Both the position numbers and the translations under genes were made by a program. Of a DNA stretch of 64,000 nt, positions 45,789-46,940 are shown piece after piece (the first letter of the stretch is position 1; each line of letters opens with the position of its first letter). Source of the stretch: Halorubrum xinjiangense (GTDB taxonomy: Archaea; Halobacteriota; Halobacteria; Halobacteriales; Haloferacaceae); NCBI RefSeq assembly GCF_900102375.1, contig NZ_FNBO01000001.1, forward strand, positions 62,001 to 126,000, written 5' to 3'. The notes under the pieces are model-generated. The model saw nothing but the letters and a program-made list of their open reading frames with translations. It had not been told where the DNA came from and ran no database searches.

Positions 45789-46940
45789 TCACGCGATCGT
45801 CTCCCGGAGCTCGCGGATCCGCTCCGGCTCGTCGATCCCGGAGCGGATCACGACCGCGGAGACGGCGTCGCCGTCGGGGACCGGGGCGTCGCCGCTCAGG
45901 ATGGCGTCCGAGCCGGTCTCCTCGGCGAGCCAGCGCCGCCCGTCGGCGATCGCCTCCCGGTTGAGCCACGCCGGCGGGCCGCCGACCACGAGCAGGGTCC
46001 GGTCGGCGCGCCCCTCGGGGACCTCGACCGTGTTCTTCCCGCGGGCCGCCTTCCGAATGACCGTCTCGATGGCGGATACCGCGGCGCTCGTGTCGACCTC
46101 GGCCGGCTCGGAGGAGCCGAACAGCCCGAGCCCGAACCGCGAGCCAGAGTCGGGGGGCTCCACCGCCTGCGTCGCGTGGCCGATCGCCGCGATCTCGCCG
46201 TCGCTCCCGACCGCGCGGGCGACGTCGCTCGCGTCGAGCACCTGCTGGGGCGTCGCCGTGCCCTCGGGCGTCTCGCCGGCGCCGAACAGCGCCGCGACCC
46301 GCTCGACGACGACCTCGTTGAGCCGGTCGCGGGCCCCGCCGAGCGTCTCGCTCGGGCGGAGCCACGCCGCGTTGTCGAAGGGGAAGACGGCCGCGCACTC
46401 GTCCGAGAGCGCGTCGAGGGTCCGCGCGGCGTTCCGCTCGGCCAGCGGGCGGTGGGGGGTCGGCGGCGCCGACTCGCCGTCCGGAACCCCGCTCGTCGGC
46501 CCGTCGTCGTCCGGTTCGTCCGTTTCGCTCGGGACCGGAAGGATCCCGAACGCGTAGACGGGGGCGTCGTAGAGCCGCGAGAGCTCCGCGGCGAGCGCGG
46601 GGGCCGCGCCCGCGCCGGCCGCGCCGCCGAGGCCGACGACGATCAGGAACGCCTCCGCGAGGGACGGCTGCTGGTCGTCCATCGTCCGATCGAGTTCGCT
46701 CGCGTGGGCGTCCCCGAGGCGGCGCCCGGCGTGGAGGTCGCCCTCGAGCCCGTCCCCGCCCGCGGCGTCGCCGAACCGGTACCGGCGCTCCTCGCCGAGC
46801 GCGTCCAACGCCTCAAGGGCGTCCATGTCCGTGTCGAATGCGTGTACGCCCGCGAGGAAGGGTTCGGCGTCGTGGCCGGCCGCGAGGCGGTCGACGATCC
46901 GCCCCCCGGCTCCGCCGAGGCCGATGACGTGTAGTCGCAT
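45789..46940 (-). CDS. Divergent tubulin/FtsZ-superfamily protein
   Basis: A 383-residue protein. The N-terminus MRLHVIGLGGAGGRIVDRL and the following HAFDTDMDALEAL match the first GTP-binding loop and T2/T3 region of FtsZ/CetZ. The signature loop reads VGLGGAAGAGAAPALA (about 99-114), where FtsZ has GGGTGTG followed by A-P, so the threonine is replaced by alanine. The C-terminal domain is divergent and the C-terminus lacks the usual FtsZ tail. It is probably one of the noncanonical haloarchaeal tubulin-like proteins, whose role is unknown. GTP hydrolysis may be reduced. Confidence 0.75.
   Translation of the reverse strand: MRLHVIGLGGAGGRIVDRLAAGHDAEPFLAGVHAFDTDMDALEALDALGEERRYRFGDAAGGDGLEGDLHAGRRLGDAHASELDRTMDDQQPSLAEAFLIVVGLGGAAGAGAAPALAAELSRLYDAPVYAFGILPVPSETDEPDDDGPTSGVPDGESAPPTPHRPLAERNAARTLDALSDECAAVFPFDNAAWLRPSETLGGARDRLNEVVVERVAALFGAGETPEGTATPQQVLDASDVARAVGSDGEIAAIGHATQAVEPPDSGSRFGLGLFGSSEPAEVDTSAAVSAIETVIRKAARGKNTVEVPEGRADRTLLVVGGPPAWLNREAIADGRRWLAEETGSDAILSGDAPVPDGDAVSAVVIRSGIDEPERIRELRETIA

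Follow-up and report, generated by a model that had tools for sequence, protein, structure and literature searches.

The gene and its family

The gene considered here lies on the minus strand of a 64,000-nucleotide stretch of Halorubrum xinjiangense DNA (the whole of which we call the window), and its features are collected in Table 1. Its 383-residue product is a CetZ of the tubulin superfamily, a family reportedly named by Duggin et al. in 2015. Membership of the superfamily had been proposed from the letters of the window alone, and Pfam, fold and trees agree with it and narrow it to the CetZ family. The CetZ_C domain (PF21011), above its cut-off in 30 of 30 A1 members, is matched at 1.4e-37 (129.3 bits against a cut-off of 21.6), and the Tubulin/FtsZ GTPase domain (PF00091) at 1.2e-16 (62 bits against 33). 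The FtsZ equivalog (TIGR00065) scores 30.6 bits, below the NCBIfam cut-off of 295.2, and this rules out an identity as FtsZ.

Table 1. Features of the divergent cetZ locus, in positions of the window
Feature	Position	Strand	Basis or conservation
Divergent CetZ gene	45789..46940	minus	ORF from ATG to TGA, 383 aa; Pfam matches; nearest structures 4b46 and 4b45
TATA-like box, 25-30 nt ahead of the start codon	46965..46970	minus	A/T runs in upstream stretches
T1 glycine loop, residues 7-13, GLGGAGG	46902..46922	minus	G7, G9, G10, G12 and R14 invariant in 51/51 covering rows
T4 signature loop, residues 103-114, GLGGAAGAGAAP	46599..46634	minus	Translation and CetZ1 alignment; glycines and P114 kept in 52/52
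Ala108 codon at the canonical threonine site (E. coli FtsZ T108; T111 in the CetZ1 of the same genome)	46617..46619	minus	
T5-loop insertion, residues 136-163, acidic, proline rich, variable	46452..46535	minus	15-50 residues, median 28 (52 rows)
T7 (catalytic) loop region, residues 231-240, PQQVLDASDV	46221..46250	minus	Aligns with CetZ1 VVDSSE
M-loop motif, residues 267-275, SRFGLGLFG	46116..46142	minus	S267, F269, G270 and G272 in 52/52
Neighbouring gene, 244 aa	44976..45710	minus	

By sequence the nearest solved relatives are CetZ1 (4b46) and CetZ2 (4b45) of H. volcanii, and the AlphaFold2 model, built from a 30-sequence alignment (mean pLDDT 78, pTM 0.81), ranks the same two first, with Z 39.1 for CetZ1 (318 residues, 2.1 A, 33% identity) and Z 37.0 for CetZ2 (30% identity). 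The Methanosaeta CetZ (3zid) comes third with Z 34.8, and the best FtsZ lies lower, at Z 31.4. Confidence in the model is low in T3 (60-65), in the T5 insertion (146-156, with pLDDT below 50), ahead of T7 (228-233) and in the M-loop (266-278). The prediction of an altered tubulin nucleotide site withstands this structural comparison, since the model can be superposed from end to end on CetZ1 and CetZ2 and its T4 loop sits between the strand of residues 96-103 and the helix of residues 108-124, as in the rest of the superfamily. A modelled fold in common with CetZ1 and CetZ2 would not by itself prove a common function.

In the trees (quick trees with SH-aLRT support and without bootstrap, with several long branches flagged; 11 genus sequences in the tree made without the T4 columns and 28 in the other) the protein groups with CetZ, apart from FtsZ. 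It is not CetZ1, as its clade is separate from that of CetZ1 and the same genome holds a CetZ1 of its own. Nor is it CetZ2, as its M-loop is long (residues 260-283 in the model); that of CetZ2 is short, about 3-6 residues, and the C-terminal tails of CetZ1 and CetZ2 are negatively charged, according to the available part of PMC9856176. Only 3 residues follow H11 in the 383-residue protein, compared with 35 in CetZ1 and 29 in CetZ2 of the same genome. By its long M-loop and the missing acidic C-terminal tail we assign the protein to a third haloarchaeal CetZ group. It has the whole fold of CetZ1 and CetZ2, their CetZ_C domain, their glycine loops and their type of T7 motif, and it differs from both in the T4 loop (where Thr and Ser are lost), in a T2 loop that reads DTD instead of being led by Asn, in the T5 insertion, in the M-loop motif and in having no tail.

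A third, unnamed and uncharacterised CetZ subfamily is reported across diverse Halobacteria (Brown and Duggin 2023, PMC9856176, the part available), and the group described here may be that subfamily. CetZ-like 'Halo.Tub' proteins are described in the available part of PMC9871819. The diversity of CetZ and the third haloarchaeal subfamily are thus already published; a loss of the T4 threonine in CetZ is a description that we did not find by title and abstract in the open-licence literature, an absence that carries little weight. The accessible text of PMC9856176 has no mention of this loss, and that of PMC11621097 none of a GTPase-dead CetZ.

A search of the genome with the Tubulin family gives five proteins above the cut-off: two with the signature GGGTGTG, which we take by that motif as FtsZ1 and FtsZ2, the divergent CetZ, and one CetZ1 and one CetZ2, named from motifs, tails, M-loops and tree position. 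CetZs of the canonical signature therefore persist alongside the divergent one. There is also a weak Tubulin match of 27.8 bits, below the cut-off, at G000:C1:534806-535093 within an open frame of 1061 residues. Two more CetZ genes, adjacent to each other and with the canonical GGGTGSG, occur in some genomes of the genus (L153:1-2733, L157:187-2799); one of the two is long and has an inserted stretch ahead of T3.

The T4 signature and its conservation

The T4 loop reads GLGGAAGAGAAP where CetZ1 of H. volcanii (4b46) has GLGGGTGSGGAP. In the alignment of the two, the seven-residue signature GGGTGSG becomes GGAAGAG, with Gly107, Thr108 and Ser110 all replaced by Ala, and the canonical CetZ signature GGGTG(S/T)G is absent from the 383 residues. 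The original prediction held that the signature threonine was lost while the N-terminal glycine loop remained, and on both counts the alignment agrees with it, across the genus as well as in the window. We regard GGGTG(S/T)G as typical of the CetZ family and not as defining it, because relatives in the third group vary their T4 loop too; other readers may give the signature more weight.

A copy of the divergent CetZ is present in all 52 genus genomes (split over contig ends in one), and the listed copies are free of internal stop codons. At position 108 the 52 sequences have Ala in 51, Val in 1 and Thr in none, so the loss of Thr108 in the Halorubrum CetZ is neither chance nor a sequencing error. 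The alanine codon itself varies (GCC 28, GCG 21, GCT 2), so that it is the amino acid that is maintained, beyond the DNA letters alone. Around it, G103, G105, G106, G109, G111 and P114 stand in 52/52, while position 107 is A in 30 and G in 22, and position 110 is A in 41, G in 8, S in 2 and T in 1. The T7 residues Q233, D236, A237, S238 and D239 are likewise found in 52/52. Before these counts, proteins shorter than 350 or longer than 500 residues, exact duplicates and two further entries (L154, L039) were left out, and one of the 52 rows (L141) is missing roughly its first 85 residues. Almost every named record in this clade is from Halorubrum, the exceptions being one titled Halobellus captivus and one unclassified Halobacteriales bin.

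Timing of the threonine loss

When the 52 genus sequences are aligned with 29 near relatives from outside the genus, 28 of the latter have Thr at position 108 and 1 has Ser. These relatives comprise Haloparvum, the g4/g24 proteins and the f7 ('MQLEV') group, and they share with the genus one clade (support 100), the DTD of T2, the T5 insertion, for the most part the motif SRFGLGLF, and the missing tail; what sets the genus apart from them is Ala or Val at 108. In the tree made without the T4 columns the genus forms a single clade (support 100), nested in a 40-row clade (support 100) whose remaining members have Thr or Ser at 108, so Thr108 appears to have been lost once, on the stem leading to the genus. 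Over 80 rows the state of position 108 requires 5 changes, among them the Ser found in g12/g14 and in one f7 protein. The 40 order-level proteins are among the best-scoring matches and not a random sample, and one of them (L194) falls outside the third group.

Other parts of the T4 loop vary among the relatives too. Haloparvum has GGGTGAG, the g4/g24 proteins GGATGGG or GGATGAG, and the f7 group mostly GGATGGG, such that both the change of Gly107 to Ala and the loss of Ser110 are found outside the genus; from these sequences we infer that the loop may have loosened before Thr108 was lost. The neighbouring g12/g14 CetZ branch (L103-L108, L110, L117) reads GLAG(G/A)(S/T)G(A/S)T in T4, with Ser replacing Thr in 6 of 8 rows, and T4 seems to have loosened repeatedly in this group. 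The DTD of T2 is common to nearly all of the wider third group and the long T5 insertion to the 40-row clade (f7 and Haloparvum included). The acidic tail of CetZ1 and CetZ2 is missing from every listed third-group protein, each of which ends at most 15 residues after H11. In Halolamina pelagica CDK2 a related CetZ gene lies over two reading frames (L039:4770-6188), as either a broken gene or a sequencing error.

Selection, promoter and gene neighbourhood

The divergent CetZ is under purifying selection, looser than that on CetZ1: its median dN/dS is 0.24 (1258 pairs) and that of CetZ1 0.046 (462 pairs), a fivefold difference by a simple counting estimate on GC-rich DNA. Across the genus 126 positions are invariant. 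They are enriched in T1, T3 and T4 taken together (20/33 against 66/242 for the rest, p = 2e-4) and in T7/H8 (11/17, p 2e-3 against the same remainder); S8-H10 has 22/34. T4 by itself has 6 of 12 (p 0.10), and the T5 insertion is unconstrained, with 1 of 29 positions invariant.

A run of at least five A/T starts 28-36 nt upstream of the gene in 50 of the 65 listed upstream stretches, in which some genomes are counted twice. This TATA-like box, which begins 28-36 nt ahead of the start codon, suggests that the divergent CetZ is transcribed leaderless from its own promoter.

In most genus loci the gene after cetZ encodes the 244-residue neighbour. It was considered as a functional partner, but it occurs in 108 of 167 genomes of the family (15 of 28 genera), including genomes without the divergent cetZ, and we judge the arrangement an ordinary neighbourhood. 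It is a conserved haloarchaeal protein, apparently duplicated internally when judged by eye, in which no Pfam domain exceeds its cut-off. An AI-2E transporter gene and purK/purE are also neighbours of cetZ in most genus loci. None of the six neighbouring genes tested lies beside the CetZ relatives outside the genus (L037, L038, L039, L100-L119).

Proposed function

We turn to what a CetZ with alanine at this site may do. A close counterpart is an engineered one, the T108A mutant of E. coli FtsZ, with the identical substitution at the identical position of the signature loop. In the available part of PMC5979038 its GTPase is almost zero, it forms well-formed rings with GTP and Mg, and these rings have no rotation or treadmilling and a near-absent turnover; the available part of PMC8175707 describes T108A as a low-GTPase mutant with residual activity and comparable polymerisation rates. 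The published oligonucleotide changes GGGTGTG to GGGAGTG (PMC5979038, the part available), and one genus genome (G033; L015 and L095) has exactly this laboratory motif, GGGAGTG, as its natural T4 signature. Because the same substitution leaves rings and removes nearly all GTPase activity, the reading that we favour by analogy, with a probability of about one half, is that the divergent protein, a third-type haloarchaeal CetZ, is a natural equivalent of FtsZ T108A, predicted to bind GTP, to be competent in assembly and to be poor in hydrolysis. The divergent CetZ would still bind GTP, would dock head to tail, either with further copies of itself or with CetZ1/CetZ2, and would turn GTP over very slowly. 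The outcome would be long-lived, weakly dynamic filaments or a stabilising subunit within CetZ1/CetZ2 filaments, with lateral contacts probably made through the conserved M-loop motif; having no C-terminal tail, the protein would not be handled by tail-binding partners.

The comparison has its counterpoints. The mutant is an engineered FtsZ, while the natural CetZ has further changes around the site, and the behaviour of the mutant may not transfer to a CetZ in high salt. The dN/dS, five times that of CetZ1, weighs on the same side. The co-occurring changes of the pocket (T2, H7, T3, the T5 insertion and Ser110 to Ala or Gly) could abolish binding, though most of them are common to relatives that retain the threonine. 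We assign the nucleotide contacts of the T loops and the tyrosine on the guanine side from tubulin and FtsZ structures, which we assume to hold here.

The next question is "does the pocket still hold a nucleotide?" The original prediction left two outcomes, a protein that binds GTP and hydrolyses it poorly, which matches FtsZ T108A (PMC5979038 and PMC8175707, as far as available), and one that has lost nucleotide binding, against which stand the five T4 glycines, invariant in 52/52, and the conservation of T1, T3 and T4 given above. The latter outcome would make the protein a nucleotide-free pseudo-tubulin, a regulator that, for example, caps one end of a CetZ1/CetZ2 filament by way of its intact, invariant T7 face. 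The loss of both Thr and Ser from T4 would suit it, as would the Asn to Asp change in T2, the Tyr to Arg change in H7 (46/52), the T5 insertion and an acidic residue in T3 (D in 32 and E in 5 of 52). There is a precedent in the FtsZ of Nitrosopumilus maritimus, another tubulin-superfamily protein of an archaeon whose signature is naturally non-canonical; according to the available part of PMC3684127 it has AGKAGSA for GGGTGTG, forms no filaments in yeast and is not rescued when the motif is restored. It is, however, an FtsZ and not a CetZ, and its signature has lost glycines too. Few residues of the divergent CetZ are kept as well as the glycines of T1, T3 and T4, which is hard to explain without a ligand, and most of the extra changes are also seen in relatives with an intact threonine. 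Both the H7 and the T2 change are found in such relatives, and we rejected them as proof of lost guanine binding. A cap would further predict a bottom face better kept than the top, that is, a T7/H10 face that retains CetZ1-invariant residues better than T1-T6. In 52 distinct sequences (which coincide only in part with the one-per-genome set; the element borders were drawn from motifs and the model) such residues are kept at 24/65 in T1-T6 and the start of H7, 12/22 in H10/S9 and 3/15 in T7/H8, against 53/189 in the rest; T7 lends the cap no support and we set it aside. We hold a nucleotide-free regulator to be rather unlikely. By the same counts T7/H8 keeps the CetZ1-invariant positions no better than the rest, so docking of the divergent CetZ on CetZ1 itself would be conjectural.

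At the other extreme, the protein might be an ordinary GTPase that behaves like other CetZs, with another residue, such as T37 in the T2 loop, making up for the missing Thr108. Of the 51 rows that cover position 37, 50 indeed have Thr and 1 has Ser, the aspartates of T7 are invariant, and most g12/g14 relatives already have Ser at the site. Yet the DTD of T2 is also present in relatives that retain the threonine, so it is no compensation specific to the genus, and a lone Thr to Ala change nearly abolishes the GTPase of E. coli FtsZ (PMC5979038, the part available); we hold such full activity to be quite improbable. Drift of a redundant paralogue towards loss would account for a dN/dS five times that of CetZ1 and for the unconstrained T5 insertion. 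It has to face a copy in every genus genome with no internal stops in those listed, a dN/dS well below 1, the 126 invariant positions and a conserved promoter-like box, and it deserves very little credence.

For the hydrolysis-poor CetZ that we favour, we tentatively go one step further and suggest that the genus has fixed by selection a hydrolysis-dead CetZ, which would stay in a static GTP state beside the dynamic CetZ1 and CetZ2, either forming a permanent scaffold or braking mixed filaments from within. The usual view of tubulin-family GTPases is that they exist for the sake of the dynamics which GTP hydrolysis drives. If the suggestion is true, a paralogue without the hydrolysis threonine, its alanine kept genus-wide, would mean that cells can use a deliberately static subunit.

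The M-loop is a low-confidence part of the model, and within it the motif SRFGLGLF is kept across several genera. In the form SRFGLG(L/I)(F/L/I) it is found in the genus, Haloparvum, g4/g24, g12/g14 and most f7 proteins, and it has the look of a segment for lateral contacts or partner binding.
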